Origin: Planctomycetaceae bacterium
GTDB lineage: Bacteria; Planctomycetota; Phycisphaerae; SM23-33
Assembly: GCA_039680605.1 (NCBI GenBank)
Contig: JBDKTA010000017.1
Location: forward strand, 1 to 48,862
Direction: 5' to 3'
Length of the DNA: 48,862 bases
The translations under genes and the position numbers were made by a program. Positions 474-23,706 of this stretch are shown one piece after another (the first letter of the stretch is position 1; every line of letters starts with the position of its first letter). Below the pieces are notes generated by a model, which worked only from the letters and a program-made list of their open reading frames with translations, had not been told where the DNA came from and did not search any database.

Positions 474-1322
474 GTGAGCGAGGCCTTGTTCCACAGCACG
501 GTGATGACGGAGGAGGAGTTCGAGACCATCAGCGCCTTCGTGAAGTCCACGTGCGGGATCAACCTGCATGCCGGCAAGAAGGAGCTGGTCAAGGCCCGCC
601 TCTCCAAGCGCATGCGGATGCTGAAGCTCGACAGCTTTGAGAAGTACTTCGCCCACGTGCAGCGCGACGTCTCGGGCATCGAGCTGATGGGCATGCTTGA
701 CTGCCTCTCGACGAACCTGACGTCGTTCTTCCGCGAGCCGGCACATTTTGAACTGCTGGCCAAGGTAATGGGCGAACTGCTGGCGACCAATGCCCAGACA
801 CGCAAACTGCGCATCTGGTCGGCGGGCTGCTCCAGCGGCGAGGAACCGTACACGCTGGCGATGACGCTGGCCGAAACCGCCGGCCAATGCGGATACGACA
901 TGAAGATTCTGGCCAGCGATCTTTCGACGCGCGTGCTGGCGGCGGCGCGGCGGGGCGTGTACCCGCACGCGCGCCTGCGGGGCGTTCCGGGGGAACTGAC
1001 CAGTCGATATTTCACCTTGGTCCAGGCGCGCCCGGAACGCCTGTACCAGGTCAACGAATCGCTGCGAAGCCTGATCACGTTCGCACGGGTGAACCTGATG
1101 GAGAGCTGGCCGATGGCCGGACCGTTCGACGTGATCTTCTGCCGCAACGTCATGATCTACTTTGACAAGGACACGCAGACGCGACTGGTGTCGCGATTCC
1201 AGGACATGCTGCGCCCGGGCGGCCTGCTGTTTGTCGGCCACTCCGAAAGCCTCAGCGGCGTTCGACACAACCTCGAGTACGTCCAGCCGGCGGTGTACCG
1301 CCGGCGCGGCCGGGGAGATTGA
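474..1322 (+). CDS. cheR: Chemotaxis protein methyltransferase CheR
   Basis: S-adenosylmethionine-dependent methyltransferase that adds methyl groups to glutamates on chemoreceptors during adaptation; cytoplasmic. The 282-residue protein has the usual CheR layout: an N-terminal helical domain (about 1-80), the family motif NLTSFFRE near 81-88, and a SAM-binding fold with IWSAGCSSGEEPY at about 114-126. Near the end there is DVIFCRNVMIYFD, another CheR signature. The start is GTG 474, chosen because GGAGG at 464-468 lies 5 bases upstream and the encoded sequence matches the family from its first residues. The stop (1320-1322) is 2 bases before cheD, so the two genes are probably co-transcribed. 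Confidence 0.95.
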   Translation: MSEALFHSTVMTEEEFETISAFVKSTCGINLHAGKKELVKARLSKRMRMLKLDSFEKYFAHVQRDVSGIELMGMLDCLSTNLTSFFREPAHFELLAKVMGELLATNAQTRKLRIWSAGCSSGEEPYTLAMTLAETAGQCGYDMKILASDLSTRVLAAARRGVYPHARLRGVPGELTSRYFTLVQARPERLYQVNESLRSLITFARVNLMESWPMAGPFDVIFCRNVMIYFDKDTQTRLVSRFQDMLRPGGLLFVGHSESLSGVRHNLEYVQPAVYRRRGRGD

Positions 1323-1324
1323 GC

Positions 1325-1804
1325 ATGAAAGTCGTCGTAGGCGTGGCCGACATGCGAATATCCAACCAGCCCGGCGACGTGGTCGTCACGCACGCGCTGG
1401 GCAGTTGCCTGGGCCTGGCGGTGCATGACCCGCAGGGGCGCATCGGCGGCATCCTGCACGTAATGCTGCCCCAGTCGCAGATCAATCCGGAAAAGGCCAA
1501 GGTCAACCCGTACATGTTCGTGGATACGGGCGTGCCGGCCTTCTTCAACGAATTGATGGCGCGCGGGGCGGTTCGAGGGCGCCTGGTGGTCAAGCTCGCC
1601 GGCGGCGCCAACGTCCAGGGCGGACAGGAAGACCGCTTCGCCATCGGAAAACGAAACTACCTGCTGCTGCGGAAGATGCTTTGGAAGAACAACATCCTGG
1701 TCAAGGCCGAAGAGGTCGGCGGCTCGTCCCCCAGAACGATGTATCTCGACGTGGACAGCGGCCGGACCTGGTTGTTGGTAAACGGACAAGAAAAAGACCT
1801 GTAG
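1325..1804 (+). CDS. cheD: Chemoreceptor glutamine deamidase CheD
   Basis: Deamidates glutamines on chemoreceptors and, in other bacteria, partners with CheC/CheX-type phosphatases. The 159-residue protein has the CheD core: THALGSC with catalytic Cys28, and His45 in ILHVMLP, close to the Cys27/His44 pair known from Thermotoga CheD. GGANV and the IGKRN segment are also conserved. ATG 1325 is preferred over an in-frame TTG at 1319 because GGGGAGA lies just upstream at 1312-1318 and family members start with a few residues before the VGVAD segment. It sits between cheR and a CheY-like gene, and a CheX-like gene follows two genes later. Confidence 0.95.
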   Translation: MKVVVGVADMRISNQPGDVVVTHALGSCLGLAVHDPQGRIGGILHVMLPQSQINPEKAKVNPYMFVDTGVPAFFNELMARGAVRGRLVVKLAGGANVQGGQEDRFAIGKRNYLLLRKMLWKNNILVKAEEVGGSSPRTMYLDVDSGRTWLLVNGQEKDL

Positions 1805-1824
1805 CAGCACCCGGAGGATTGCAG

Positions 1825-3748
<1,924 letters not shown>

Positions 3749-4037: not shown

Positions 4038-4454
4038 TCAAGAAGGTCGCAGAAATGCAGATACTCTTTTGAGCGTGGCGGGCAGTCTGCGGCTTGCAAG
4101 CTGGCATTCCCATACGACCAGCGGTCGCCAACCTTTGCGGCGCAGCAACCGACGTGTCCTTTCATCGCGAGCTTTGTTGCTCAGGAATTTCGCTCGCCAG
4201 TATGTCTTGCTCGTGTTTGGCATCCTGAAGTTCTTGCAGGAATGCATGTGCCAGAAGCATCCGTTGACAATGATGACCTTCTTGCGACCGGGAAAGACGA
4301 TGTCCGGGCTGCCCGGAAGGCTCTTGACGTGCAACCGATAGCGATAGCCCATCGAAAAAAGCAGTCTTCTCAGAACAAGTTCCGGCGTGGTGTTCGTCGA
4401 CTTGACTGCCGCCATTATGCGGGAACGTTCCGCTCTGGTGAACGTGTCGCTCAT
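4038..4454 (-). CDS. vsr: Very-short-patch-repair (Vsr) DNA mismatch endonuclease
   Basis: Nicks DNA next to T:G mismatches that arise when 5-methylcytosine deaminates, limiting mutation caused by a linked cytosine methyltransferase. The 138-residue protein is the usual Vsr length. It keeps Asp51 (LPGSPDIVF), His69, and the zinc ligands Cys66, His71 and Cys73 (NGCFWHMHSCKN) plus Cys117 (VVWEC); as far as I recall, these match the E. coli Vsr positions. It is the last gene of the island: its ATG is 4 bases after the DUF4928 stop, so it is likely co-transcribed with the methyltransferase. The local sequence is visibly AT-richer than the flanking che and flagellar genes. Confidence 0.95.
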   Translation of the reverse strand: MSDTFTRAERSRIMAAVKSTNTTPELVLRRLLFSMGYRYRLHVKSLPGSPDIVFPGRKKVIIVNGCFWHMHSCKNFRMPNTSKTYWRAKFLSNKARDERTRRLLRRKGWRPLVVWECQLASRRLPATLKRVSAFLRPS

Positions 4455-4458
4455 CTCG

Positions 4459-5415
4459 CTACTTTACGATAATCTTGATTCCAGGAAGGCCGACCTTGTC
4501 CACCCATTCCTTGTTATACAGGTCCACCAGCGCCTTGAGTTGACGTGTCTTCTGCTTGCTGGAGAACTCGCTTAACTCGCTTATATTCTGCCCGATGAAA
4601 GCCTCCACCGACGTGACGACAACCCTTTTCACGTCAGTAACCTCGCCTTTTTCCAACTCTCGCTTCCATGTCCCTACCCGGTCAGATCTGGTCAGAAGCC
4701 AAACCTCAAAATCGGAATCCTCCAGCGCGTCAGCTATCTGATTCATGTGTTTGTCGTCCGGCAGCCCGACCGCGACTTCGATGACGGCATTTTCGATGAC
4801 AAAGTCGCCCGGCTGGGCCTTCGCATCCCCCCGGCACTTGCGATCCGCCCTGTTGGCCTGATTGGCAGGAATATCCCGCTTGAAGCGCAACTTCAATTTG
4901 GCCCCCACCAGATACTGCGCGACATCGCCAGCTTTGCCTTTCTCCTCAGCCTGTTTGAGCAGCTCCCCAACGACAGTCTCCGCTGTCTTGCCGCCAAGCC
5001 GCACTTCCAAGGGCTCTTGATCCAATATGTACCGAAGCTTTTCGGCCAACGACCGCTGGGCGTCATCCAGAAGAGTTGATCGCCCGGATTTGGAGGCATT
5101 TTCGAATCCGGCGGCCTTGAGCAAATCAAGCAGTTCCTGCCCCCAATCCTGCAGACTTGATGACCGCCGACCATGATTCTTGTTGATTGCCTCGATCTGC
5201 AAACGCTTATGTGCCCGGTTGCCCCACGTCTCGTGTGACTGGAGTCCCGAGCTGCCTTTGCTCGCCAGGTGAGCCGTCAGATCAAGAACGGGATCGCTTC
5301 GAAGCTTTTCCAGCAACGCCAAAGCGGCTTGGAGGCGAGCAGGGATGAACCGGTCGCCTTTCTTCATCCATTCTTCTACAAAACCGTCTGGGACGATATC
5401 CATAGTTTTGCTCAC
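4459..5415 (-). CDS. DUF4928 family protein, probable restriction endonuclease partner of the Dcm-type methyltransferase
   Basis: A 318-residue protein that I recognise as DUF4928-like, a family that travels with cytosine-5 methyltransferases and vsr. It starts at an ATG overlapping the methyltransferase stop by 4 bases (ATGA) and ends 4 bases before vsr. The N-terminal half is helical and charged. Around residues 200-220 the pattern GDFVIENAVIEVAVG resembles the D...ExA strand pair of PD-(D/E)XK nucleases, and a segment with two Cys and many basic residues precedes it. No signal peptide or membrane segment is seen. A nuclease role is an inference from gene context and this pattern; the recognition site cannot be read from the sequence. 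Confidence 0.75.
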   Translation of the reverse strand: MSKTMDIVPDGFVEEWMKKGDRFIPARLQAALALLEKLRSDPVLDLTAHLASKGSSGLQSHETWGNRAHKRLQIEAINKNHGRRSSSLQDWGQELLDLLKAAGFENASKSGRSTLLDDAQRSLAEKLRYILDQEPLEVRLGGKTAETVVGELLKQAEEKGKAGDVAQYLVGAKLKLRFKRDIPANQANRADRKCRGDAKAQPGDFVIENAVIEVAVGLPDDKHMNQIADALEDSDFEVWLLTRSDRVGTWKRELEKGEVTDVKRVVVTSVEAFIGQNISELSEFSSKQKTRQLKALVDLYNKEWVDKVGLPGIKIIVK

Positions 5416-6872
5416 CTATAGGCCTCAACTTGATCGGGCAGCTTACTCCCCAATGGAGCCAAATACTGCTTGGCAATCCACTCTATCGCAGGTACACAAA
5501 CGGCGTCACCGAACCCGAAAAGGGCTTGGTTTAGCGGAACAGGTACCACATAGGAATCCGGAACTCCCTGCAGTCGTGCGCACTCGCGAGCCGTCAGCAA
5601 ACGGACCTGATATCTTCCCTTTCCCGCCTTGAAGAGGATCTGGCGTCCACTCCCGCCCTTCGGTGTTCTCAGGCAACCTGCCACACCGTCTGTCCTGAGT
5701 TCGGCCATCGACCTGCAATTACGGACGCGACGAAAGGCGGTTCCAAATGAAATGACTCGCTGCTGGATCATCTTGTCTGCGACCGCCAAGTGCCTCTCAC
5801 TGAGTTGGTTCATGAAATAGGCTGATCGCTCTTGATTCCACCACGCGGGATGGTCGTCGGGTAGATCCTCAAGGATGGACTCCAGAGAGACTTCTCGCGC
5901 CGGAGGGGGGGGGAGGTCATGGATATCCCAGGTAATCTCGGGATGGGCATTCATGAATTGCACGAGGGTTTCGGGTCGCAGAGCCGAAGCGGTCAAACCA
6001 AAAACCGACTGGCCAGAGGGGGCTTGCTTGCCCACGACAAATAATCGAAGCCTGCTTTGGGGAACAAAACATGCCGCATCCAAAAAGAAAGCGTCAACAG
6101 CATAGCCCAGTTCATTCATTGCCAGTAACGCAGATTCAAAGTCCCTACCACCGTGCGACATGAGGAAGCCGGGCACGTTCTCAAGCAACACCAGTTGAGG
6201 GCGCCGGGCATCCATGTCCTTCAGTATCCTGATCAGTCCCCAGAAGGCACTCGATTCCCCACTGTTGAGCCCCTTCATCTCCCCGGCAATCGACAAGTCT
6301 GTGCAGGGAAAAGACGCGGTCACGAGTTCACAATCGGGAATCTGATCCTCCGAAAGTTCGTGGATGTCGCCAAGAAGGAAATCGTCTTCCGCAAAATTGG
6401 CCCTGTATATCTCGAATTTGTTTGGGTCGATGTCATTCGCAAAAACAACACGAAATCCTTGGCGTTCAAGCGCGAGTCTGACAAGACCTATGCCGGCGAA
6501 GAACTCGACCGCCCGCATCGTCGGGTGGCTGACCAACCGCATGACATACTCGCGAGTGTCAACCCTCTGCAATTCCAGCAAGTCCCCGGCACGAACATCA
6601 TGGTGTCTGAAAAACTCCTTCACCCATTTTCTTGCGCGAAACTGACGACGCGGTTTGCCGGTCTTGGCCTCACGCCCAATATCCGTTTCTATCGTCCTGT
6701 CCAGTCCATCCAACAGAATGCGAATTGGCTTGCCAGCCCCTTTGCCCTTGCTAGGTTCCCCGTAGCAGTCGGGAGGGAAGAAACTGTAGAGTCCAGCCAC
6801 TGAGATGGAACTATTTCGGATATTCCCTTCGGTAACACGGATCGCCCTCTTGTCCGGCGCGGCAATCACCAT
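5412..6872 (-). CDS. DNA (cytosine-5-)-methyltransferase with N-terminal B3-like extension
   Basis: Makes 5-methylcytosine in a specific DNA site. The 486-residue protein has an N-terminal block (about 1-115) with a strand-rich pattern (IRILLDGLDRTIETDIG, then GDLLELQR) resembling the B3-type DNA-binding domain of EcoRII-like enzymes; this match is tentative. The methylase follows: motif I FFAGIGLVRLAL (about 124-135), motif IV FPCTDLS with catalytic Cys190, motif VI LLENVPG (about 229-235), motif VIII QSRLRL (272-277) and a final GFGDAVCVP motif. The start is ATG 6872, but GAAGGAG lies only 2 bases upstream; the next codon is GTG (6869), with better spacing and a possible true start. It precedes DUF4928 and vsr in one operon. 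Confidence 0.95.
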   Translation of the reverse strand: MVIAAPDKRAIRVTEGNIRNSSISVAGLYSFFPPDCYGEPSKGKGAGKPIRILLDGLDRTIETDIGREAKTGKPRRQFRARKWVKEFFRHHDVRAGDLLELQRVDTREYVMRLVSHPTMRAVEFFAGIGLVRLALERQGFRVVFANDIDPNKFEIYRANFAEDDFLLGDIHELSEDQIPDCELVTASFPCTDLSIAGEMKGLNSGESSAFWGLIRILKDMDARRPQLVLLENVPGFLMSHGGRDFESALLAMNELGYAVDAFFLDAACFVPQSRLRLFVVGKQAPSGQSVFGLTASALRPETLVQFMNAHPEITWDIHDLPPPPAREVSLESILEDLPDDHPAWWNQERSAYFMNQLSERHLAVADKMIQQRVISFGTAFRRVRNCRSMAELRTDGVAGCLRTPKGGSGRQILFKAGKGRYQVRLLTARECARLQGVPDSYVVPVPLNQALFGFGDAVCVPAIEWIAKQYLAPLGSKLPDQVEAYR

Positions 6873-6885
6873 CGCTCCTTCTATG

Positions 6886-6912
6886 CATCAGCCTCATCAG
6901 CCTCATCAGCCT
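6886..6912 (-). repeat. Three perfect 9-bp tandem repeats just upstream of the methyltransferase start
   Basis: On the minus strand AGGCTGATG is repeated three times in a row, ending 13 bases before the methyltransferase ATG. Each unit carries an ATG, which opens a short reading frame overlapping the methyltransferase start in another frame. Changes in copy number would alter leader length without changing frame. Confidence 0.8.
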
Positions 6913-6986
6913 GCCAAGGCGTGGAAGATTCTACAGTGTCCGCCGAGACTCTGCAAGGCACAGCGTCGGGCCTTGTCATCCACAGC

Positions 6987-7235
6987 CTAGACCGTCCTCA
7001 TATCCTCTAGAAGTGATCTAATTGACGCTGACGGCTCTATCTCGCAGGCGTCGCATATCCAACAGTACTCAACGAGGTCTAATCGTCTTTCCCCTATTTC
7101 CACCTTTGCTACCCAGCTAGGCGGAACAGACAATCGCCGCGCCAGGCCGCGCTGGGTCAGCCCCGCGGCTTTCCGCATAGCCACAATGTGCTGACACAGA
7201 GCGCGGTATTCCGCAGTATGAGTTGATTTTCGCAT
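6987..7235 (-). CDS. Small XRE-family helix-turn-helix regulator, controller-like, heading the restriction-modification operon
   Basis: An 82-residue DNA-binding protein with one Cro/C1-type helix-turn-helix: about 14-55 with HIVAMRKAAGLTQRGLARRL and VPPSWVAKVEIGERRLD. The size and position match controller (C) proteins that time expression of restriction-modification genes, and 114 bases separate it from the methyltransferase on the same strand. ATG 7235 is chosen because it gives the correct domain start; an upstream in-frame extension to 7442 encodes low-complexity sequence running through a repeat hairpin. A -10 box lies only 7 bases before the ATG and there is no ribosome-binding site, suggesting a leaderless mRNA, as is known for several C proteins. 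A general regulator is the alternative. Confidence 0.85.
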   Translation of the reverse strand: MRKSTHTAEYRALCQHIVAMRKAAGLTQRGLARRLSVPPSWVAKVEIGERRLDLVEYCWICDACEIEPSASIRSLLEDMRTV

Positions 7236-7246
7236 GGGCGGAATAC
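7206..7246. promoter_or_regulatory. Inverted repeat spanning the XRE gene start (candidate operator)
   Basis: GTATTCCGC at 7206-7214 is the exact reverse complement of GCGGAATAC at 7238-7246. The arms are 23 bases apart and bracket the ATG (7235). The outer arm overlaps the -10 box of the regulator, so binding there would block transcription. This suggests self-control by the XRE protein. Confidence 0.5.
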
Positions 7247-7270
7247 TACATAGGTCTCCAGCGGATTCAA
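7243..7270 (-). promoter_or_regulatory. Sigma-70-type promoter of the XRE/restriction-modification operon
   Basis: On the minus strand TTGAAT (7265-7270) is followed after 16 bases by TAGTAT (7243-7248), then 7 bases to the ATG at 7235. Transcription would begin at or next to the start codon. A weaker alternative is TTGCCA (7271-7276), 18 bases, then TATGTA (7247-7252). Confidence 0.5.
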
Positions 7271-7405
7271 TGGCAACGTTGTATCCCAGAGGCGGCGGAT
7301 TGGCAAGGCCGCAGTCGGGGACATGCCTCCCCGGGGGATGCGCGGCACCGAGGGCAAGGCGCCCTCGCCACGCGCGGGCGCGACGCCCGCCACACGGGTC
7401 AGGGA

Positions 7406-7428
7406 CACGCACAACGGAGTTGTGCGTG
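7406..7428. repeat. Perfect hairpin repeat, copy 1 (second copy at 40903-40925)
   Basis: CACGCACAAC, loop GGA, GTTGTGCGTG: a 10-bp perfect stem. The same 23 bases plus flanking GGCACC occur again upstream of the ABC ATPase gene. It lies in the 210-base gap 7236-7445 between the end of the pseudo-ATPase gene and the XRE promoter, and could end transcription or be an extragenic palindrome. Confidence 0.8.
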
Positions 7429-7445
7429 GCACCCGGCAACACGTG

Positions 7446-8870
7446 CTATCGGAGAAACCCTAGTACGCGGGCGAGTTCTGCGATGGACGTCTCCCCGGCG
7501 GCGGCGCAGCGGACTGCCGACTGCATGAACGGGGGGTGTTCTTGTGAGATCGGGGATGTGCCTTGGCGCAGGGCGGCGGCGGCTGGGCCAGCGATCTCTG
7601 TCACATCCGTCAGCAGTACTCTGCCGCTGTAGCCCGTGTGGGCGCACTGCGCGCAGCCGACGGGTTCGTACGTCGTGCCGCCGCCCAGGGTCGACAGGGC
7701 GGCTGGCAACTCCGCAGCTTCAAGCACGACCCGGCGGCGGCAGTGCGGGCACAGGCGCCGCGCGGACCGTACTGCCACGACGGCCTTGAGCGTCGAGGCG
7801 GTCGCCCACCCGGCGCCCACGGTTTCGGTAAGAATGTCCGTGGCCGCCGCGGCGCTGTCGGCCGTGATTCCCGCCAACACCAGGGCGCCTCCGCGTGCCA
7901 GATCGAAGGCCGACTTTGCCGTGGCGGCATCGGTCAATTCGGCGACGACGGCGACATCCGCGTCGCCCAGATCGGCCGCCATGGCGCCGGCGGGACAGGG
8001 GATGTATCCGTTAATGGCCCCGCCGAGTGCAAACGCCAGCGCCCCCTCCAGCGGCACGTCGCCAGCCATGGCCTGGAGCAGCGTGTCCCTGCCGCCGCGG
8101 GGCGCTGCGGCAATAAGGATCAGCCCCCCGCCGCTGTGGCTGAGCCTGCGCAGGGTCGCCAGTTCTTCCGCCGCCAGCAGATCGGCCAGCCCCGCCGCGA
8201 CCGAAGACGGGGCGGGCAGGCGGCAGATCAGCGTGCATCCGACGGCGGCGGGAACGGCTGTCAGCTCCAGGGCGACCTGCTGGCCGTCGAGGGCTCGCAC
8301 GAAGGGTGCTTTCCGTACCGCCGCAGCGCCGGCATCCAGATGAGCCTGTTCGAGCAGGTACCGGGGAAGCTCGGCCACCAGCGCCGCCGGCAGACGCTGG
8401 GCGAAGCTGTCCTTGGCATGCATCACGCCATCGATGCGCAGTTGCAGGCTCAGCGAACCGCCGCTGGGCTGAAGGACCAGCTCCGTGGCGCGGGAGACGA
8501 GGGCCTTTCGCAGGATGGCGTCGAGCACTTGGGCGGCGGGCAGCTCGGCGGGGACCGTTTCCGCAGCGTCGGGGATTCCTGGGTCACTGAAGTGGCCAGG
8601 CCGGGAGGCCGCGGGGGCGGGCGGCGCGGAAGGCTCGTGCGACTGGCGCGATGCTTCTTTTTCGCGCGCGGCGGTTTGAGTCATCAGAGCGCCGATGTCG
8701 ATCCCCTGGCGCCTGAGGAACTCGACGAGGTGTTTCTCCGATATGCGGATGGACTTGTCGTTCATGCGCTGGAAGGGCAGGATCCCCTTCTTCATCCACT
8801 CGACGACCGCCTCGGGAGCCGACCCCAGCAACTCGGCGACCTGGTAGGTGGTATACAGGCGCCCGGTCAT
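7446..8870 (-). CDS. HTH domain fused to a degenerate GspE/PilB-type secretion ATPase
   Basis: A 474-residue fusion. Residues 1-56 form a MerR/excisionase-type helix-turn-helix (YTTYQVAELLG, VVEWMKKGILP). After a Pro/Ala linker (about 65-110) comes a GspE/PilB-like region: RIDGVM at 145-150 matches the family RIDG motif and AELTD near 310-314 matches the Asp/Walker-B region. A zinc tetracysteine is kept (Cys374, Cys377, Cys406, Cys409, with HTGYSGR). The Walker A site is broken: APRGGRDT at 256-263, with Asp in place of the essential Lys, and the His box is gone. It is probably a non-hydrolysing regulator or scaffold rather than a motor. ATG 8870 overlaps the previous stop by 4 bases. Confidence 0.75.
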   Translation of the reverse strand: MTGRLYTTYQVAELLGSAPEAVVEWMKKGILPFQRMNDKSIRISEKHLVEFLRRQGIDIGALMTQTAAREKEASRQSHEPSAPPAPAASRPGHFSDPGIPDAAETVPAELPAAQVLDAILRKALVSRATELVLQPSGGSLSLQLRIDGVMHAKDSFAQRLPAALVAELPRYLLEQAHLDAGAAAVRKAPFVRALDGQQVALELTAVPAAVGCTLICRLPAPSSVAAGLADLLAAEELATLRRLSHSGGGLILIAAAPRGGRDTLLQAMAGDVPLEGALAFALGGAINGYIPCPAGAMAADLGDADVAVVAELTDAATAKSAFDLARGGALVLAGITADSAAAATDILTETVGAGWATASTLKAVVAVRSARRLCPHCRRRVVLEAAELPAALSTLGGGTTYEPVGCAQCAHTGYSGRVLLTDVTEIAGPAAAALRQGTSPISQEHPPFMQSAVRCAAAGETSIAELARVLGFLR

Positions 8871-9241
8871 CTGCGGACCTCCCGCGAGCCAGACGCGCAG
8901 GCGCCGCAGGCGCCGTACGCCCGCACGAGGGCCTTGCCCGGGTACACGCGAGCGAGCTGAGCTTTGACCTCGCCCTGCTGCTGCGACAGCGCCAGGTTCA
9001 CCTGCTGGTGCAGGCGGCGGCAGGCGGCCAGTTCGGCCTTGCCGGCAGAGCTTGCGACCCCAATCTTGCCGAGGCGGCAGAGAAGTTCGTTCGTCCGGCT
9101 GCAGATTTCCGATGCCGGGTCCAGCAGCCCTTCCCGCACGCACTGCAACTGCTCCTGGAGCGCGTGGCGCAGGTCGGCCAGCAGGGACGATTCATCGTGG
9201 ACCCCTGGAATGCGGTGATCACTGGCGGGCATCGTGGTCAT
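8867..9241 (-). CDS. Small unknown protein between the TPR gene and the HTH/pseudo-ATPase
   Basis: A 124-residue protein I do not recognise. It looks mostly helical and charged (ADLRHALQEQLQCVREGLLD, later LHQQVNLALSQQQGEVKAQL), with Cys residues near the C-terminus (YGACGACASG). Length and helical content resemble flagellar chaperones such as FlgN or FliT, but no motif proves it. It overlaps the upstream TPR gene by 23 bases (14 if ATG 9232 is used) and the downstream gene by 4 bases, so it is translated as part of one three-gene unit. No signal peptide or membrane segment is visible. Confidence 0.65.
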   Translation of the reverse strand: MTTMPASDHRIPGVHDESSLLADLRHALQEQLQCVREGLLDPASEICSRTNELLCRLGKIGVASSAGKAELAACRRLHQQVNLALSQQQGEVKAQLARVYPGKALVRAYGACGACASGSREVRR

Positions 9242-9869
9242 CCGCCGCCCGGGAGGAGAGGGTTTGCTCGATGCGCTGGAGCAGGGCGGCCGCTTCGGCG
9301 TTTTGGGGCTGCAGCGAGAGGACTTTCATCGCCGCCTCCCGTGCGGCGGCAAGAGAGCCTTCGCGGGCGTAGAGGGTGGCCAGGCAGAAGAGCACGGCGG
9401 CATCGTCATTGTGGCGGCTGAGATAGACCTTGAGATAATGCACGATCATGGCGAACGTGCCCATCTGGCACGATGTCTGGAAGAGCCCCAGCAGCGCCAT
9501 CAGGTTGTCGCCGTCGATTTCCAGACACCGCAGGTACATGGCGAAGGCCTGGCGATATTCCTTGCGGTCCTGGTAGATCATGGCCAGGCCCGAGCAGGCT
9601 TCGGTGCAGTTGCGATCGAGATCGCGGGCCAGTTCGAAGTAGCCCTGCGCCTCGTAAGGTCGCCCCTCGGCCAAAGCCACCACGCCCAGACCGGCATAGC
9701 TGTCGGCGCGGTGCGGTTCGAGTTCCAGCGCCTGGCGGTAGAGGCCGCGGGCGCGCTCCAGATCGCCGGCGACGGCGCAGCAGTCCGCGGCTTCTTTGAT
9801 CCCCTGGTAATCAGCCAGAGGGCCGTCAGCCTGCTGCTTGCTCGTATTCCATGTTGTGCCAGGAGACAC
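9219..9869 (-). CDS. Tetratricopeptide repeat protein
   Basis: A 216-residue cytoplasmic protein made almost entirely of about five TPR units (starting near residues 22, 57, 91, 125 and 158; for example RGLYRQALELEPHRADSYAGLG). TPRs bind other proteins. It starts at GTG 9869 with AAGGGA upstream; an out-of-frame ATG at 9876 opens only a 16-codon frame. A near-consensus sigma-54 promoter lies 55 bases upstream of the start, so this gene begins a transcript separate from the flagellar operon that ends 213 bases earlier. It probably forms a complex with the two genes downstream, but its partner is unknown. Confidence 0.85.
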   Translation of the reverse strand: MSPGTTWNTSKQQADGPLADYQGIKEAADCCAVAGDLERARGLYRQALELEPHRADSYAGLGVVALAEGRPYEAQGYFELARDLDRNCTEACSGLAMIYQDRKEYRQAFAMYLRCLEIDGDNLMALLGLFQTSCQMGTFAMIVHYLKVYLSRHNDDAAVLFCLATLYAREGSLAAAREAAMKVLSLQPQNAEAAALLQRIEQTLSSRAADDHDARQ

Positions 9870-9923: not shown

Positions 9924-9939
9924 TGCAAAGTACGTGCCG
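9924..9939 (-). promoter_or_regulatory. Sigma-54 (-24/-12) promoter of the TPR/pseudo-ATPase module
   Basis: On the minus strand: CGGCACG, 4 bases, TTGCA. The invariant GG (9937-9938) and GC (9925-9926) are separated by exactly 10 bases. It differs from consensus TGGCACG-N4-TTGCA at the first base only. Predicted transcription start is near 9913, leaving a leader of about 44 bases. The rest of the 213-base gap 9870-10082 shows no gene. Confidence 0.75.
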
Positions 9940-10082
9940 GGAATAATACACAGCTTCTTATGCCGCTAAAGCCCTTGGGGGACAGTGATTGGTGACATCG
10001 CCACCTGCCGCCGGCCTTGCCGTGGGGCTCTCTGGAATGTGCAACAACTGGCCGCGCGCAAAGCATCCGCGCATGGCGGAGG

Positions 10083-11516
10083 CTAAATGTAGTCCAACAG
10101 GGAGACCTTCATGATCTGTGCCGCAGCGGCCAGTGTCATCTCGTAGAAGGTCTGGACGCGCGCCAGTTCGGTGGCGACTTCGGCCACGTCCGCCGATTGC
10201 AGGCTCGTGGCCTGATATTCAGCGCCTTCCTTCATGATGGCCAGGTTGTCGGCCAGGGTCTCCAGGGCCTGCTGCTTGGCGCCGACGGAGGTCAGACTGG
10301 TCAGGATCGTCTCATGCACTTCATCGAGGGCGGCCAGGGCCTGCGTGATCTGCTGGGTCTGCTCGGTCCGGCTCAGGCCCCGGGTATTGGCCAGGGCGTC
10401 GCGAGCGGCGATCAGGGTCTCGAAGATATCATGCGTGCCTGCCACGCTGACGGCCTCGGTGCCGGTGCGGGCGATGTTCGTCGTGTCGACAAAGAGCCCG
10501 CGTCCGCTGACGGAGTCGACGACGCTCTGATTGTCGGCGAAGTTCGTCAGGGGGGTCGAGGAGGCTCCGCCGTCAATGCTCATCGTGCCGGTGGCCTGCA
10601 GAGAAACGCTGATGGTGCCGGCCAGGTCCGCATCGAAACCCGTTGTGTCGACATGCACGACATCGCCCTGGGCGTTGACCAGGCGCACGCTGGCGTCGGT
10701 GGCGGCGTCAAATGCGACAGCCGGTCCGCCGTCGAGCGACAGCGTACGCGCATCGGCGTCGACCGTGATGGTATGGCCGCTGCCGAGGATGGTGTCTCCG
10801 GTTGGCGATTCGGCAGCCGCGGCCAGACCGGAAGCCCCGCCGTACGTGGTGACGGCGTGGGAGAAGGTCAGCCAGGCGCTGCCGGTGATGCTGCTGGTGG
10901 CACTGCCGGCGGCGGCGCCGGTTGAGCCGCTGAAGATCGGGCTCTCGCGCTGCTGCGTCTGGAAGACGTTGGCGCCGATGAGGGTGTGGGACTGCCCGAC
11001 GCCCGAGGCAACCCCCACTTGCGGCATGGTCATGCTGCCGCAATAGCTGACGGAAGTGATCTTTCCGTCGACGCGCGTGACGGCGTAAGGGGCGCTGGAC
11101 ATGCTGGAGCCGCCGAAGAGGTAGCCCTGGGCGCTCTTGGTGTTGGCCAGCGAGACGATCTGTTCCAGCAGAACGTCCATCGCCTCGGATGCCGGGAGGC
11201 GGTCTTTCTCGATGAAGGTTTCGCTGGCGGCCTGCGAGAGCGTCTGCCGGGCCTGGATCAGGCCGTCCGAGGCGCTCTGGATCGCGGTGGAGATTTCGCT
11301 GAGGTTCTGATTGACCATGCCGAGGTTGCGCACAAAGGTCTCGATGCCCCCGACGCGCTGGCGGAAGCTCAGGATCATCGCCGCATCGGCCGGGCTGTCG
11401 CTGGCGCGGTTGACGCGTTGACCGGTCGCCACTTGCTCCTGCAGGCGCGCCAGTTGATTCATCCCCGATCGCAGCGATGTCAGCACCGAGTTGTAGATCC
11501 GGTTGGTTCCGCTCAT
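10083..11516 (-). CDS. flgL: Flagellar hook-associated protein 3 FlgL
   Basis: Junction protein between hook and filament, exported by the flagellar type III system. The 477-residue protein has the flagellin-like N-terminal helix (NRIYNSVLTSLRSGMNQLARLQEQVATGQR, which I cite only for its RVNRASDSPADAA continuation) and C-terminal helix ending in KVSLLDYI, as in FlgL. The middle part (about 170-370) is a long Thr/Ser/Gly-rich surface domain, making it longer than the roughly 300 residues of enterobacterial FlgL. Its ATG overlaps the flgK stop by 4 bases. It is the last gene of the hook operon. Confidence 0.93.
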   Translation of the reverse strand: MSGTNRIYNSVLTSLRSGMNQLARLQEQVATGQRVNRASDSPADAAMILSFRQRVGGIETFVRNLGMVNQNLSEISTAIQSASDGLIQARQTLSQAASETFIEKDRLPASEAMDVLLEQIVSLANTKSAQGYLFGGSSMSSAPYAVTRVDGKITSVSYCGSMTMPQVGVASGVGQSHTLIGANVFQTQQRESPIFSGSTGAAAGSATSSITGSAWLTFSHAVTTYGGASGLAAAAESPTGDTILGSGHTITVDADARTLSLDGGPAVAFDAATDASVRLVNAQGDVVHVDTTGFDADLAGTISVSLQATGTMSIDGGASSTPLTNFADNQSVVDSVSGRGLFVDTTNIARTGTEAVSVAGTHDIFETLIAARDALANTRGLSRTEQTQQITQALAALDEVHETILTSLTSVGAKQQALETLADNLAIMKEGAEYQATSLQSADVAEVATELARVQTFYEMTLAAAAQIMKVSLLDYI

Positions 11517-13468
11517 AGCACGTCCATCAGGAATGACAGCGCCTTATCCTGTGCAGCGATAAATTTCGAAACGGCCTGGTACATCCGCTGGAACATCAGC
11601 ATCTTGGCGGCCTCTTCGTTGACGTCGACGCCGCTGACGCCTTCGCGCTGATCCGCCAGAAGGCCCACCACCTGCGCCAGACTCTTCTGGGTGGCGGTTC
11701 CGGTGAAGACGTCCTGCCCGACGCCGGTGACGATCTGCTGGAGGTATTCCTCGGCCGCGACATTATCCAGCGCCGCGTGCGGCTGACTGACGCGTTCGAT
11801 CATGCGCTGCAGATTGGCCCCGTCGACGGCGCCCTGTCCGATCGCCAAGGCCAGCGATCGCGGATCGTTCATCAACTCCTGGCGCACGGCGATATCCGCG
11901 GCGCCGGTCCCGTTGAAGAAGGTGTTGATCCCCGCCGCCGCCAACAATCCCGAGGTGTCGCTGTCGGCCAGCGCCGCGATCGTAAAACTGTCGCCGTTGT
12001 TAAGCGTCCCGGGACCCATCGACAGGAAGACGCCCTGTCCGATCTCGATCCGGTCCAGCGAGGCGTAGCCGGTCCCGACATTGAGGGTTTTGACGACCGC
12101 CCCGGCAGCATTGGTAACGACCACGCGGAGCCCATCGGTGGCGCCGACCTGGCCCGAGCCGCTGACCGTGCATGTGTAGACCTCGTTCGACGAACCGCTG
12201 TACAGCCCGCTGACAGCCGCTTCGGCCGTGCCGGTAATGGCGCTGCTGTCGGGCCGGACGGACAGAGCCGGCAGGAAGTCGAAGGTGTACCCATCGGCAG
12301 CGGTAATGTTCATCGCGCCGTTGAACCGCGAGGCGGTGATGTTGTCCAGCGCGTCGAGCCTGGCGACGATGCCGGCCATCGAGTCATGCTGCGGGTCGAC
12401 GCTGATTTCATGGCGCGTGACCTGGCCGGTGGCTTCATTGGTCACGCGGATGAAGAAACTGCCGGGCGACACGTTGTTCAGCGCGGCGGCGATAGGACCG
12501 TCATCCACGCTCTGGCCGGTTACCTGGGTAAACCCGCCGGTGGTCCCCACGCCCTGGGAGTGCAGTTGGTTGATGTCGCTGATCAGTTGGCCGGCCAGGC
12601 TGTCCAGGCGAGCCTGGAGGGCGGGAATGTAGTCGTTGGCCAGCGTCAACAGGGCGCCGATCCTGCCGCCATCGACGTCGGTTTGAAGATTGCCCGCGCC
12701 CTTGATCGTCACGCCGATGGTGTTTCCCACGCCGATCCCGGATTCGATCTCCACCGCATGACTGCCCAGCACCAGCGGCGTTCCCATCGCCAGAACGTTC
12801 TGGACAGTTCCGCCGGGCTGGATCTGCGCCTCGACGCCGATCAGTTCCGCCAGTTCGGCGACGGCCTGATCGCGATTATCCTGTATCAGGTTGCCTCCGC
12901 CGCCGGCGAAGAGGACCTGGCCGATCTGCCCGTTGGCGATGGCGATCTGCTGCGTGAGGGAGTTGACCTGTTCGCTCAACACCGAGACCTGCGAGAAAAG
13001 CTGCCGGCGCAGGTCCGACAGGAATCCCGAAAGATTGCGGAACTGCGAGGCCATGCCATCGGCCGACCAGATCACCTGCTGGCGCAGCGCCGGGCTGTTG
13101 GGATCGGTGGACAGTTCGCTCAGGGCGCTGGTGAACTGGTCCATCGCCGAACCGAGGGAGTTGGAGTCCAGCCCGCCCAGGGCGCTTTCGATGGTCTGCA
13201 GAATGCTGGTCCGCTGGTCGGCTTGGCCCAGGCGGGTCGTCTGCTGAAGGATCTGTCGCTGCAGCAGCTCATCGACGCAGCGTTTGACCGCCACGACCTC
13301 CGCGCCGCCGAGGGATATCTTTCCCTGACGGCTCAGTTCGAGCGATGCGATCTGGAGTTCCTGGCGGTTGTAGCCCGGAGTGGTGGCGTTGGTGATATTG
13401 GTGCCGACCAGGTCCAGCGATTGCTGGGCGACGCGAAGCCCCGTCAGTCCTATGAGGTAGCTGGACAC
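11513..13468 (-). CDS. flgK: Flagellar hook-associated protein 1 FlgK
   Basis: Hook-filament junction protein, 651 residues. The N-terminus has the rod/hook signature (LRVAQQSLDLVGTNITNATT, then PGYNRQE), and the C-terminus a conserved helix (MLMFQRMYQAVSKFIAAQDK). Between them lies a long, variable, Ser/Thr/Gly-rich region. The start is GTG 13468, supported by GGAG 5 bases upstream; the G is shared with the TAG stop of flgN. Enterobacterial FlgK is around 550 residues, so the central domain is moderately enlarged. Confidence 0.93.
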   Translation of the reverse strand: MSSYLIGLTGLRVAQQSLDLVGTNITNATTPGYNRQELQIASLELSRQGKISLGGAEVVAVKRCVDELLQRQILQQTTRLGQADQRTSILQTIESALGGLDSNSLGSAMDQFTSALSELSTDPNSPALRQQVIWSADGMASQFRNLSGFLSDLRRQLFSQVSVLSEQVNSLTQQIAIANGQIGQVLFAGGGGNLIQDNRDQAVAELAELIGVEAQIQPGGTVQNVLAMGTPLVLGSHAVEIESGIGVGNTIGVTIKGAGNLQTDVDGGRIGALLTLANDYIPALQARLDSLAGQLISDINQLHSQGVGTTGGFTQVTGQSVDDGPIAAALNNVSPGSFFIRVTNEATGQVTRHEISVDPQHDSMAGIVARLDALDNITASRFNGAMNITAADGYTFDFLPALSVRPDSSAITGTAEAAVSGLYSGSSNEVYTCTVSGSGQVGATDGLRVVVTNAAGAVVKTLNVGTGYASLDRIEIGQGVFLSMGPGTLNNGDSFTIAALADSDTSGLLAAAGINTFFNGTGAADIAVRQELMNDPRSLALAIGQGAVDGANLQRMIERVSQPHAALDNVAAEEYLQQIVTGVGQDVFTGTATQKSLAQVVGLLADQREGVSGVDVNEEAAKMLMFQRMYQAVSKFIAAQDKALSFLMDVL

Positions 13469-13986
13469 TATCGCTCCGTATTAAGCAGCCCGCCGTCGCG
13501 TTGCCCGTGAGGGCGCCCGCCGGCGTCGTAAGTCTCCACGGCTGAACCGCGCCCCAACAGCGTATCGAGCAGCAGGCGATTGATCCGGGAGCATTCGGCC
13601 AGCAGGATGGCCGTTTCCAGGTGCCGGCGGCGGAGGCGCCGCAATCGCTGGAAGATCTCGCCGCAGAGTCGCTCGATGCCGCCGGCGGAGTCGCCGTCGA
13701 GGGCGCGGGCCAGTTGCCTCAGTCTCAAGGGCGGGCGCCCGGGCGATATGGCGTCGCTCAGCTCGGCGCGGCGGCGGGCGATATCCATGTCCAGGCGAGA
13801 CTGTTCGATATCGGTATGGGCGATGGTCGCCATCAGCGCTTCCAGCGCCGCGTCGTCCGAAACCATCACCGCCTCGCGCAGGCGCTCCATCTGCTGTTCC
13901 TTCTGATCGAGCAGATCGGCTTCGCGTTGCAGCGCCTCGACCAGCGACTCGGACAGTTCCGTCACGGACCCCTGCGAGAGAATCAT
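13468..13986 (-). CDS. flgN: FlgN-family flagellar export chaperone
   Basis: A 172-residue, highly helical, charged protein (LVEALQREADLLDQKEQQME and a C-terminal helix RLLLDTLLG). FlgN binds the C-termini of FlgK and FlgL before export, and this gene lies directly upstream of those two. The start ATG 13986 overlaps the flgJ stop by 4 bases; a longer in-frame reading to 14046 adds only a Gly-rich stretch that belongs to flgJ sequence. FlgN is poorly conserved, so the call relies on size, helix pattern and position. Confidence 0.8.
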   Translation of the reverse strand: MILSQGSVTELSESLVEALQREADLLDQKEQQMERLREAVMVSDDAALEALMATIAHTDIEQSRLDMDIARRRAELSDAISPGRPPLRLRQLARALDGDSAGGIERLCGEIFQRLRRLRRRHLETAILLAECSRINRLLLDTLLGRGSAVETYDAGGRPHGQRDGGLLNTER

Positions 13987-14309
13987 GGCCGCACCTCCGC
14001 CGCCGCCGCCTGCGAGGGAGCGATCTGGCGTGCGATGCTCTTCCACAACCCCAGGCCGCCCTTGCTGGAAAGGTCTTGCGCCAGGTGGTAGTAGAACATG
14101 TCCATCACCTGCTTTCCGCCGGTTTCTTCCAGCATCCCGCCGTCCTCGACGGTATTGCCCATTTCCTGAACGAGTTGGGTCAGCAGGATGGACTCGAAGC
14201 TCTTGGCCGCCTCGACGACGGCCTTGTCGTGCTGCCTGGCACCCGCGGCGGCGATCTGCGGCATCGCCTGCGGCGGGAGGACGCTGATTGGTATCGAAGG
14301 CATGTCCAT
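13983..14309 (-). CDS. flgJ: FlgJ-like rod-binding protein (no muramidase domain)
   Basis: A 108-residue protein matching the N-terminal rod-binding part of FlgJ (AAKSFESILLTQLVQEMG, GGKQVMDMFYYHLAQ). It helps assemble the rod in the periplasm. The peptidoglycan hydrolase half present in enterobacterial FlgJ is absent, as in many other phyla, so a separate hydrolase would be needed to open the wall. Its ATG overlaps the flgI stop by one base (TGATG). It sits between the P-ring gene and flgN. Confidence 0.88.
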   Translation of the reverse strand: MDMPSIPISVLPPQAMPQIAAAGARQHDKAVVEAAKSFESILLTQLVQEMGNTVEDGGMLEETGGKQVMDMFYYHLAQDLSSKGGLGLWKSIARQIAPSQAAAAEVRP

Positions 14310-15421
14310 CAGATCACCTTCAGTTCCGCCTGGAGGGCGCCGGCCTGGCGGAGCGCCTCAAAAATACTGATCAGGTCGCGCGGCGTCATGCCCAGGGCGT
14401 TGAGCGCGCGGGCCAGTTCCGAAACGCTGACTTTGCGCCGCAGGACGTTGAGCGTGCCCTTCTCCTCCACCACGTCGATCTGCGTGCGCTTGACCTTCTC
14501 GGTGTTGCCGGTCTTGGCGAAGGGCGAGGGCTGCGAGACCATCTCCTTTTCCTGCGTCACGATCGCCAGGTTTCCGTGGGCGATGGCCACAGCCGAGATC
14601 GACACGTTCTCCCCCACCACGATCGTGCCGTTGCGCGAGTCGATCACCACCACCGCCGGCGTGTCGACCGTCACGCTCAGGGCCTCAATCGCGGTGACCA
14701 TCTCAGTCACGGTCTCGGGCTTGGCATCCTTGGGCAGCGAGACGCGGACGGCCGCGGCGTCGATGGCGGCGGCCGCTTGCGGATACTTCTCGTTGATCGC
14801 CGTGGCGATGGCCTGGGCAGTGGCGAAGTCTGGGTTCCGGAGCTGCAGCGTCATGAAGCCTTCGCGGACGAAGACGGCCACTTCGTCGCGCTCGATGGTG
14901 CCGCCGTTGGGGATGCGTCCCACCGTCGGATGGTTTTTTGAAACCGAGGCCGCCGCGCCCGAGGCGCCGAACCCGCCCACCGACAACTGCCCCGAGGCCA
15001 CCGCGTACGGCTGACCGTCGGCCGCGACCAGCTCGGTCATCAGCAGCGTTCCGCCCTGAAGGCTGCCGCAGTTGCCGATGGCCGAGACGGTCACATCAAT
15101 CTTGCCGCCGCTGCGGGCGAAGGGGGGCAGGTCGGCCGTCACCAGAACGCTGGCGATGTTCTTGCTGGCCACGTCGTCCGGCGAGAGGACCAGCCCCGTG
15201 CGGCGCAGGACGTTGGCCAGCGCCCGCTTGCTGGCGATCGAGTTGTCGCCGGTGCCGTTGAGCCCGATGACCAGGCCATAGCCCCACACGGGGTTTCCGC
15301 GGACGCCCTTGATGTCGACGATGTCTTTGATGCGCTCGGCGCGGGCCGTCCCGGCGGCGATCAGGACTGCCGCCATGCCCGCCGCCGCCCACCATGTACT
15401 GTTGCGTGTCATATCGTTCAC
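14309..15421 (-). CDS. flgI: Flagellar P-ring protein FlgI
   Basis: Forms the periplasmic P-ring around the rod. The 370-residue protein is the usual length, with a signal peptide at about 1-28 (hydrophobic AAAGMAAVLIAAGTARA). The mature start RIKDIVDIKGVRGN, the LVIGLNGTGD motif and the RTGLVLSPDD region are typical of FlgI. The conserved FVREGFMTLQL and final IFEALRQAGAL are also present. An in-frame ATG three codons in could be the true start. It lies 9 bases after flgH. Confidence 0.96.
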   Translation of the reverse strand: MNDMTRNSTWWAAAGMAAVLIAAGTARAERIKDIVDIKGVRGNPVWGYGLVIGLNGTGDNSIASKRALANVLRRTGLVLSPDDVASKNIASVLVTADLPPFARSGGKIDVTVSAIGNCGSLQGGTLLMTELVAADGQPYAVASGQLSVGGFGASGAAASVSKNHPTVGRIPNGGTIERDEVAVFVREGFMTLQLRNPDFATAQAIATAINEKYPQAAAAIDAAAVRVSLPKDAKPETVTEMVTAIEALSVTVDTPAVVVIDSRNGTIVVGENVSISAVAIAHGNLAIVTQEKEMVSQPSPFAKTGNTEKVKRTQIDVVEEKGTLNVLRRKVSVSELARALNALGMTPRDLISIFEALRQAGALQAELKVI

Positions 15422-15430
15422 CGCTGCCGC

Positions 15431-16096
15431 TTACGAAGGACTGATTACGTTGAGGATCGCGTCGAGCCATCCCGGTCGCACGAACGTGTCGCTCTGGCCG
15501 CGGTCGTAGGTGACGAACTGGAACTCGGCGATCTTTGCGCTGGAGATCGTGTTGGCGTAGGTAATGTCGCTGAGCCTGACGATCCCGCTGATCTGGACGT
15601 ACTGGACGTTGCCGCCGACCTGGCGCTTGCGCGTGCCCATGATCACCAGGTTGCCGTTGGGGTGAACGTCGTAGACCGTGACGGTGATCGAATCGGCGAT
15701 CGAGCGGTTGCTGCCGTAGTCGCTCTTGCCGTCGAACTTGTTGCCCGAGGAAGCACTGAGATCGACCGTCGGCGCCACGTACGTTTTGTCCTCGATATCC
15801 TTGAGGCCGAAGATCTTCTCCGCCCACGCTCCGAGCATGTTGCCCAGCTTCACCGTGCCGCTCATCTTGGCGGCGCGCGACGTCGTCTTCTCCATGGTGT
15901 TGTTGGTCGTGTTGCTGACCTCGCTGATCTCGGCGATCTGCACCGTCAGCGAATCGCCGACCTTGCGGGCCGTGTCGTCGGTGGTGACCGTCGAGACGCC
16001 CCGGCGGGTCGCGCGGGCGTAAATCGAATCGGCGCCGCACGGGCACGCCGCCCCCAGCAACGCCGCGACCATCAGCAATGCCACGCGGATCTTCAT
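15431..16096 (-). CDS. flgH: Flagellar L-ring protein FlgH
   Basis: Outer-membrane L-ring protein, 221 residues, with a signal peptide (about 1-22). Core segments GDSLTVQIAEISEVSN and RSIADSITVTVYDVHPNGNLVI (residue range about 128-150) followed by GTRKRQVGGNVQYVQISG are diagnostic. A Cys at residue 18 (LLGAACPC) is near where a lipobox would be, but the -3 residue is Gly, so lipidation is uncertain. It overlaps flgA by 4 bases. The presence of both L- and P-ring genes implies an outer membrane of the usual two-membrane type. Confidence 0.94.
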   Translation of the reverse strand: MKIRVALLMVAALLGAACPCGADSIYARATRRGVSTVTTDDTARKVGDSLTVQIAEISEVSNTTNNTMEKTTSRAAKMSGTVKLGNMLGAWAEKIFGLKDIEDKTYVAPTVDLSASSGNKFDGKSDYGSNRSIADSITVTVYDVHPNGNLVIMGTRKRQVGGNVQYVQISGIVRLSDITYANTISSAKIAEFQFVTYDRGQSDTFVRPGWLDAILNVISPS

Positions 16097-17046
16097 CGTC
16101 TCACCTCGCTCGTTTGCGGCTGCACTGACGCGTCGGCCAGCACGATGCCCGACACGATGCGCTTGGAATCGACGTTGCGAACCTTGATATATTGCCCTTC
16201 GTACCCGTCCTCGAGGGCCTGGCCCATCGCCGAGACGGTGAAGCCCTCGCCCACGATCCGCATCGTCACGGCCTGGTTGCGGCGCACGAGCACCTCGGGC
16301 TTGGCCTGGCGAACCAGCGAGGACCGAATCGCCGTGCCTTTGGCGATCGGCTGCGACGCCAGGGCCGTCGCCGGCGGGACATACGCCTCGACCGCGGCGG
16401 AGACCTCCTGTTCCTCAATGCGAAGGTTCTCCTGCGTCAGCGCCTCGCCGGCGGCGATATCCCGCACCGCCACCCAGCGGCGCACGGTAAAGATGCGTTT
16501 GAAGACGACCTCGATCTCCGCCAGGTCGCCCTGGGGGCCCGAGACCGCCACGCGCAGGTGGGCCAGACCGGCGGCGTAGGAATCGAGACGGGCCTGGTAC
16601 TTCAGCGACTCGCTGCTGGGCAGCGTCAGGTCTTGAGGCCGCGTGCTGACCCGCCACGTCCACGTTCCCAGTTCGGGCAGTTGCGCCAGAAACGCCCGGG
16701 CCTGTTCGACCAGCGTGTCGGCCTTGATCACCTGCTCTTTTCGGCGGACGCTGACGCGGTCGGCGCCGGTGACAGTGACCTGCCCGGTCTGGAGATTGCT
16801 GCAGGCCACGCGCGAGCGGACGAGTGCCTGCTCGATCGTCAGAACTTCCTGGGCCAGCGGCGAGCGCCCCAGGGGCAGGGCGCGCAGGGCCTCGCGCAGC
16901 GTCGCGTTGTCGCATGAGACAACGCCCACGTCGCCCAGCGTCAGTTGGCGGCAGGCGACGCTGATCTCGCGCGGAAGATGTATGCGCACGTCGCGGGAAG
17001 GCTCTCCCGCCGCCAGCGCCACCAGGCATAGTGCCATGAAGTTCAT
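16093..17046 (-). CDS. flgA: Flagellar basal body P-ring formation protein FlgA
   Basis: Periplasmic chaperone for FlgI. The 317-residue protein has a short N-terminal hydrophobic signal, then an N-terminal domain, and a C-terminal SAF-like domain (about 205-315: VAVRDIAAGEALTQENLR, AKGTAIRSSLV, IVGEGFTVSAMGQALEDG). The final GQYIKVRNVDSKRIVSGIV is the best-conserved FlgA motif. It is longer than enterobacterial FlgA (about 220). The start ATG 17046 lies 10 bases after the flgG stop; an ATG four codons in is possible. Confidence 0.92.
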   Translation of the reverse strand: MNFMALCLVALAAGEPSRDVRIHLPREISVACRQLTLGDVGVVSCDNATLREALRALPLGRSPLAQEVLTIEQALVRSRVACSNLQTGQVTVTGADRVSVRRKEQVIKADTLVEQARAFLAQLPELGTWTWRVSTRPQDLTLPSSESLKYQARLDSYAAGLAHLRVAVSGPQGDLAEIEVVFKRIFTVRRWVAVRDIAAGEALTQENLRIEEQEVSAAVEAYVPPATALASQPIAKGTAIRSSLVRQAKPEVLVRRNQAVTMRIVGEGFTVSAMGQALEDGYEGQYIKVRNVDSKRIVSGIVLADASVQPQTSEVRR

Positions 17047-17056
17047 GAGTGTCGTC

Positions 17057-17842: not shown

Positions 17843-17856
17843 CTCGAATTTCCTTT

Positions 17857-21729: not shown

Positions 21730-21744
21730 CGTTCACCTCGTGCG

Positions 21745-22113
21745 TTAGTCTGCAATAGCCTGGATCTGGTCCAGCGTGAGGGTTCTCTGACCGGCCTGCA
21801 CCACCGCCTCGCCGGCGACAATCCCGGACCCCGTGACGCGAGCCCAGACCGCCGTGTCCGATCCTTCCGGCAGGTACGCCACGGCCTTGCCGATCAGGGC
21901 GGTGGCCTGCGAAAGCTGCTGCGACGCCAGCACCTTCGAGAAGGTGCTGTTCATCGTTTCCATCTGCTGCAGTTGCGAAAGCTGGGCGAGCTGGCTGGCC
22001 ATCTGGTCGTTATTCATCGGCTCCAGCGGGTTCTGGTTCTGCAACTGCGCCACCAGCAGCTTCATGTAGTTAGCCTGGATCGTGCTGGCGTTCTGTATAG
22101 CGGTCGTGGCCAT
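21745..22113 (-). CDS. flgD: Flagellar hook capping protein FlgD, short form
   Basis: Scaffold that caps the growing hook. The 122-residue protein has the conserved N-terminal part (FMKL-type segment YMKLLVAQLQNQNPLEPMNN, then QMASQLAQLSQLQQMETMN) and the start of the core, with GKAVAYL. It ends at about half the usual FlgD length (about 220), lacking the Ig-like and second barrel parts. The stop is clean and the next gene follows normally, so this seems a genuine short form. Start ATG 22113 has AGGA 5 bases upstream; sequence further upstream belongs to the fliK end. Gap to fliK is 7 bases. Confidence 0.9.
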   Translation of the reverse strand: MATTAIQNASTIQANYMKLLVAQLQNQNPLEPMNNDQMASQLAQLSQLQQMETMNSTFSKVLASQQLSQATALIGKAVAYLPEGSDTAVWARVTGSGIVAGEAVVQAGQRTLTLDQIQAIAD

Positions 22114-22120
22114 GGCGTTC

Positions 22121-23629: not shown

Positions 23630-23642
23630 TCCACCAGACCTC

Positions 23643-23660: not shown

Positions 23661-23706
23661 AGGAGAGATCTCTCGCTGAACCGGCTGGGGATTGGAAATC
23701 ATGAAA

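Follow-up and report, generated by a model that had tools for sequence, protein, structure and literature searches.

The T4P and T2SS ATPases PilB, GspE and PilF (PF00437) share a core of two domains, N2D and CTD, with an RIDG motif, a zinc tetracysteine, and the Walker A, Asp-box and His-box motifs. The N1/MshEN domain of PilB and GspE is a protein-interaction module. Signalling by a secretion-motor ATPase independently of pilus assembly is also on record in the case of PilB, which regulates EPS production (reviewed in PMC11656802), there as an active motor with no fused DNA-binding-type domain. A second described fold that bears on the gene considered here is the winged helix-turn-helix (HTH) of BldC and MerR proteins. 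In BldC (structures 6ama and 6amk), Arg30, His46, Arg47 and Arg48 contact DNA, and either R30A or H46E abolishes binding (PMC5859096).

One gene in the window, by which is meant the whole 48,862-nucleotide stretch analysed, encodes a protein that joins a winged HTH to a PilB/GspE-like core (hereafter HTH/T2SSE). Both parts belong to known families, and judged by function-defining residues neither is a full member of its own. Unlike PilB, GspE and PilF, the window protein lacks the Walker A, Asp-box and His-box motifs, has a winged HTH and a probably disordered linker in place of N1/MshEN, and is encoded in a flagellar rather than a pilus or T2SS neighbourhood. Unlike BldC and MerR, it carries a large fused ATPase-fold domain and has no MerR coiled coil or effector domain. 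The original prediction knew of no described protein with this layout, and none was found in the open-access literature that the search covered, so the term undescribed is provisional. In the genomes sampled, carriers of the combination form a clade and occur in only part of a single planctomycete class. The union of an inactivated motor with a DNA-binding-type domain, usually in flagellated genomes and often next to the hook genes, suggests a dead motor recruited as a regulatory or scaffold protein in uncultured planctomycetes. With a little less than even confidence, we read the protein as a non-catalytic pseudo-motor that regulates or scaffolds motility genes through DNA or the transcription machinery.

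The PilB/GspE-like core and its ATP site

The gene and the parts of its product are laid out as follows.

7446 to 8870, minus strand: HTH-pseudoT2SSE gene, 474 amino acids; open reading frame with a Shine-Dalgarno sequence and conserved start, matching Pfam HTH_17 and T2SSE
8697 to 8870, minus strand: MerR/BldC-type winged HTH, residues 1-58, by HTH_17 match and an HTH-only model near BldC
8739 to 8771, minus strand: wing, QRMNDKSIRIS, with Ser/Ile at the BldC His46/Arg47 positions and the Arg48 position kept
8547 to 8639, minus strand: low-confidence (pLDDT <50), probably disordered linker, residues 78-108
7455 to 8543, minus strand: PilB/GspE core (N2D and CTD), residues 110-472, by VIA-align to 5it5_A
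8418 to 8441, minus strand: LRIDGVMH, with the RIDG motif (residues 145-148) kept, by alignment
8076 to 8111, minus strand: degenerate Walker A, AAAPRGGRDTLL, by alignment with the genome's own canonical paralogs
7929 to 7967, minus strand: Walker B, GDADVAVVAELTD, its Glu kept (AELTD), by alignment with paralogs
7857 to 7892, minus strand: former His box, GGALVLAGITAD, both His lost, by alignment with paralogs
7644 to 7751, minus strand: zinc tetracysteine region, C374/C377/C406/C409, by alignment

The gene begins with an ATG at 8870, and its coordinates and reading frame are as originally predicted. A Shine-Dalgarno sequence, GGGAGGT, lies closely 5' of the start codon; the start position (MxER...) is conserved among orthologs, and the Shine-Dalgarno sequence often is as well. 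An AlphaFold2 model of the protein has a mean pLDDT of 84.5, and the linker is the region that varies most in length across orthologs. A Pfam search of the protein returned no MshEN match, residues 1-58 being the winged HTH instead, and by both profile and model the place of N1/MshEN is taken by this domain on its probably disordered linker.

The profile search that the original prediction had proposed as a check bore out the T2SSE similarity, with matches to T2SSE (PF00437; 8.9e-24, 84.2 bits against a cut-off of 24.9) and HTH_17 (3.6e-8, 34 bits against 27). In a phmmer search, residues about 108-426 matched PilB/GspE structures at 1e-17 to 1e-13, and the modelled core superimposes on Thermus PilB (5it5_A) with Z 36.5 and rmsd 2.5 over 359 aligned residues.

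Within this core, the ATP site has been heavily altered. Where paralogs encoded in the same genome have the P-loop GPTGSGKTTTL, the aligned stretch of the window protein is AAPRGGRDTLL, with the first Gly lost too. The loss of the Walker A Lys had been foreseen, and its replacement by Asp proves wrong by a shift of one: Lys is replaced by Arg and the next residue, Thr, by Asp. The Asp box falls in an 8-column gap of the paralog alignment, and the TLHT of the His box, already called missing, is replaced by GITA. The RIDG motif and the four zinc cysteines are retained, again as claimed. Among orthologs, both His-box His are lost in all full-length copies, and the Walker A Lys is kept in only two (G015, GPPRSGKST; G032, DPSGSPKAT), both of which lack the Walker B Glu and the His-box His. 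The four zinc cysteines are found in most orthologs; G002 and the G029 copy on C145 lack them. Because the Walker A, Asp-box and His-box motifs are lost, we infer that ATP hydrolysis is lost as well, and the ATP site of the window protein looks dead. Motif loss and the core model together support the original picture of an HTH joined to a secretion-ATPase fold that lacks a working ATP site.

The winged HTH and the DNA contacts of BldC

An HTH-only model, made from 18 sequences, lies closest to BldC (6ama, Z 8.0, rmsd 2.3 over 56; 6amk, Z 7.9, rmsd 1.5 over 51). One Xis chain scores within 1 Z of BldC and several MerR chains within 2, and a Z of about 8 is modest for a short domain, so the fold class is firmer than the exact relative. 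As in BldC, the Trp31 position is invariant among family members and the Arg48 position is mostly kept (15 of 18). In contrast to BldC, the recognition-helix Arg30 survives in 2 of the 18 and, in the wing, Arg47 in 1 and His46 in none. The next-best HTH relatives are HTH_17-REC response regulators of the same taxon (L128-L135), which score about 50 bits versus more than 95 for most family members. Unlike HTH/T2SSE, these proteins have their own receiver domain and an intact GGHRR wing, with His46 and Arg47 present in the five examined.

The fold of the added HTH thus stands as predicted, while its description as DNA-binding is weakened by the loss of BldC wing residues that the HTH-REC relatives keep; with His46 and Arg47 gone, DNA binding by the family HTH is unsafe to assume. 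The domain is nonetheless the most conserved part of the protein (mean column identity 59% versus 36% for the whole). Since it is so conserved and yet has lost the BldC contacts, the HTH is under selection and may bind DNA in another way or bind protein.

One alternative is that HTH/T2SSE is a pure protein scaffold or adaptor whose HTH is a protein-interaction module and which tethers or chaperones flagellar or envelope machinery with no DNA contact. The wing contacts are lost in 17 to 18 of the 18 members, and the first 60 residues of the orthologs carry a net charge near zero (-3 to +4). The CTD is dispensable in a second family, and the gene overlaps orf124, which lies near the FlgK and FlgL genes and whose short length would suit an export chaperone. 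However, the loss of two wing residues is no proof of lost binding, base contacts are often few in MerR-type proteins (PMC5859096), and strong conservation of the HTH, including the Trp31 and Arg48 positions, sits poorly with a domain freed from DNA. We regard a pure scaffold as possible, if rather unlikely, and continue to favour regulation or scaffolding of motility genes through DNA or the transcription machinery.

Genomic neighbourhood and a possible link to flagella

The gene lies at the end of a long flagellar cluster, whose parts are listed here with the associated promoter-like sites.

10083 to 23644, minus strand: flagellar operon FliK-FlgD-FlgE-PilZ-like-FlgF-FlgG-FlgA-FlgH-FlgI-FlgJ-FlgN-FlgK-FlgL, upstream of the HTH/T2SSE gene on the same strand
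9219 to 9869, minus strand: TPR protein gene (Pfam TPR), after FlgL in several genomes by synteny
8867 to 9241, minus strand: orf124, its stop overlapping the HTH/T2SSE start by 4 bases (ATGA)
23644 to 23660, minus strand: exact sigma-54 site TTGGCACGTCGATTGCT (TTGGCACG-N4-TTGCT) before FliK, by motif scan
9924 to 9940, minus strand: sigma-54-like site CCGGCACGTACTTTGCA, one mismatch, upstream of TPR-orf124-HTH/T2SSE, by motif scan

Within the operon, FliK and FlgE were named by Pfam and the others by sequence reading and tblastn synteny. The gene between FlgE and FlgF (18563-19696), conserved in position, is PilZ-like by reading, with no Pfam match at 0.001. The HTH/T2SSE gene is the last of the run from FliK to FlgL, TPR and orf124. 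A homolog of orf124 follows the TPR gene in G011 (tblastn 1.8e-10; L162 6821-7117), and a gene of similar size does so in G027 (L062 13054-13401). Short, chaperone-sized and near the FlgK and FlgL genes, orf124 is possibly an export chaperone. Between the HTH/T2SSE gene and a che cluster at 474-3748 is a possible restriction-modification island (4038-7442), which by sequence reading contains Vsr-like, restriction-enzyme-like and DNA cytosine methyltransferase-like frames and then an XRE-type HTH.

A sigma-54 promoter had been proposed for the gene. With the spacing set at N4, the scan found two sites with at most one mismatch in the window, against 0.28 expected by shuffling (two or more in 4 of 100 shuffles). 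These are the exact site before FliK and the one-mismatch site before the TPR gene; the scan found none directly before the HTH/T2SSE gene, and the proposal is borne out in part. A similar site, with two mismatches, precedes the TPR gene in G027. In G008, G015, G023 and G028 the HTH/T2SSE gene is at the opposite end, upstream of FliK-FlgD-FlgE, and an exact equivalent of the sigma-54 site before FliK lies between the two; in G015, CheR-CheD-CheY-CheB is directly upstream of the HTH/T2SSE gene as well. An Rfam search of the window found no RNA family.

The predicted position next to the hook operon stands in the window and is frequent, not universal, among orthologs. Linkage to FliK/FlgE or FlgK/FlgL/TPR is seen in the window's own genome (G000) and in G008, G015, G023, G027, G028 and G056, the G027 and G056 orthologs being near TPR/FlgL/FlgK; in G082 the ortholog adjoins the TPR gene. 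About half of the informative loci adjoin a flagellar hook, che or FlgK-FlgL cluster, at either end and near sigma-54 sites. In the stretches read, the orthologs of G010, G011, G019, G021, G029 and G033 are not near flagellar genes. Their neighbours include a transketolase (G011), a sugar epimerase (G019) and a ComEC homolog (G010 and G033). In G033 (L058 10982-13087) and G010 (L059 2-2137) the HTH/T2SSE gene is divergent from that ComEC homolog, which is 78% identical between these two related genomes.

Upstream of the hook operon there is a further element. Upstream of the sigma-54 TGGCACG, at distances of about 147 and 126 bp, tandem palindromes like CGGAAGNNTCTTCCG occur at L049, L053, L056, L060, L147, L159 and L163 and, weaker and shifted, in the window (23644-23800, minus strand), in genomes with and without the HTH/T2SSE gene. 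A sigma-54 activator probably uses them as its enhancer site. As an operator of HTH/T2SSE the palindrome was rejected as diagnostic because it is also present in two non-carriers, G016 and G006, and so is not evidently a site for this protein. A comparison of k-mers upstream of the HTH/T2SSE gene and upstream of FliK showed no sharing above chance.

There is some indication of an association with flagella across the window's family. Flagellar FlgI, called at E <1e-60, is found in 15 of 19 carriers versus 6 of 16 non-carriers (Fisher p 0.018, uncorrected for phylogeny, with several of the MAGs incomplete), and in 13 of 17 versus 8 of 18 (p 0.086) when only the 17 clear carriers are counted as such. 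Four of the 19 carriers have no flagellar FlgI, two of these being less than 75% complete, and 6 of the 16 non-carriers are flagellated. The association is suggestive and not strict, and carriers without FlgI together with flagellated non-carriers argue that HTH/T2SSE is not a dedicated, essential part of a hook checkpoint. A second FlhA-family (FHIPEP) gene, perhaps of a non-flagellar type III system, is present in the window's genome (G000:C33:84946-86901) and in many genomes of the family, including those without flagellar FlgI.

HTH/T2SSE could instead be a regulatory subunit of an active pilus or T2SS motor that co-assembles with or competes against canonical PilB/GspE and so modulates pili; the flagellar neighbourhood would then reflect pilus-flagellum cross-control. 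The core has the fold of a complete PilB, the window's genome encodes six strong, full-length canonical PilB/GspE homologs, and the genomic position is linked to motility. We consider such a subunit quite improbable, though. Among the neighbours searched, no pilus genes were recognised beside the orthologs examined, the protein lacks the N-terminal domain by which these ATPases usually dock to the pilus/T2SS platform, and G056 and G082 have lost the CTD that a mixed ring would require. The flagellar neighbourhood is read here with the preferred account, a non-catalytic regulator or scaffold of motility genes.

Descent, selection and a proposed role

Searches covered 100 relatives with the protein, 397 genomes of the class with the full alignment, and the class with the HTH alone. 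The full-alignment profile returned mainly ordinary PilB, and an HTH-only profile was needed to reveal the real distribution. Of the 35 genomes in the window's family, at least 19 have an ortholog: 17 clear carriers, G005 (gene split by an assembly gap) and G002 (core strongly degraded). Three genera from a second family in the class (G056, G082, G088) have orthologs too. Where a record is named, it is a Planctomycetota MAG, and the label of some is Phycisphaerae or Phycisphaerales. In an HTH search of a 392-genome phylum sample, matches below 1e-14, apart from the window's own, were limited to four short ORFs with an HTH (about 205-232 aa), a size that fits HTH-REC proteins.

A tree groups the pseudo-ATPase cores in a single clade (support 92) separate from ordinary PilB, showing a single origin for the family. 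The clade is mostly under purifying selection: dN/dS is mostly 0.1-0.4 in closer ortholog pairs, with most pairs in the ranges 0.15-0.24 (HTH), 0.21-0.36 (N2D) and 0.08-0.41 (CTD), and the linker is least constrained. The G056 and G082 orthologs consist of HTH, linker and N2D only, with no ATPase-domain remnant found nearby; between them dN/dS is relaxed (0.54-0.75). In G088 the copy is frameshifted and the ATPase domain is present in another frame. Decay of a once-functional fused ATPase by drift, to which the high divergence of the orthologs (about 35% identity), the members that have lost Cys4 or the CTD, the G088 frameshift and the relaxed G056-G082 pair might point, is very improbable given open frames in nearly all copies, the low dN/dS of closer pairs, and a start, Shine-Dalgarno sequence and HTH conserved across 19 or more genomes.

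The favoured account, a non-catalytic regulator or scaffold of motility genes, would begin with a PilB/GspE paralog that lost ATP hydrolysis in an ancestor of the planctomycete lineage. Its PilB-like core, mainly N2D, probably serves as an oligomerisation or partner-binding platform and would present several HTH modules to a target, likeliest DNA or the transcription machinery at motility promoters. The output would be control or scaffolding of flagellar (hook-stage) gene expression, not motor work. That the protein is a ring-forming PilB pseudo-ATPase with several winged HTHs, and stands for a novel class of regulators of transcription or assembly that couple flagellar (or pilus-flagellum) status to motility gene expression, seems unlikely to us, and the link of assembly state to gene control suggested at the outset is conjectural.

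If confirmed, HTH/T2SSE would show a secretion-motor fold turned to non-catalytic regulation, to our knowledge a rare fate for PilT/VirB11-like ATPases, and would offer a handle on flagellar gene control in planctomycetes, where such circuits are little studied. The natural truncations, with HTH and N2D and no ATPase domain, open a direct way to test which parts matter. Apart from this family, the window's genome encodes a second degenerate PilB-like protein (L014, G000:C67:124983-126146), with Walker A GMPRSGITST, Walker B LLVDRCGD and an apparently membrane-spanning N-terminus; its gene adjoins a PilT-like gene.
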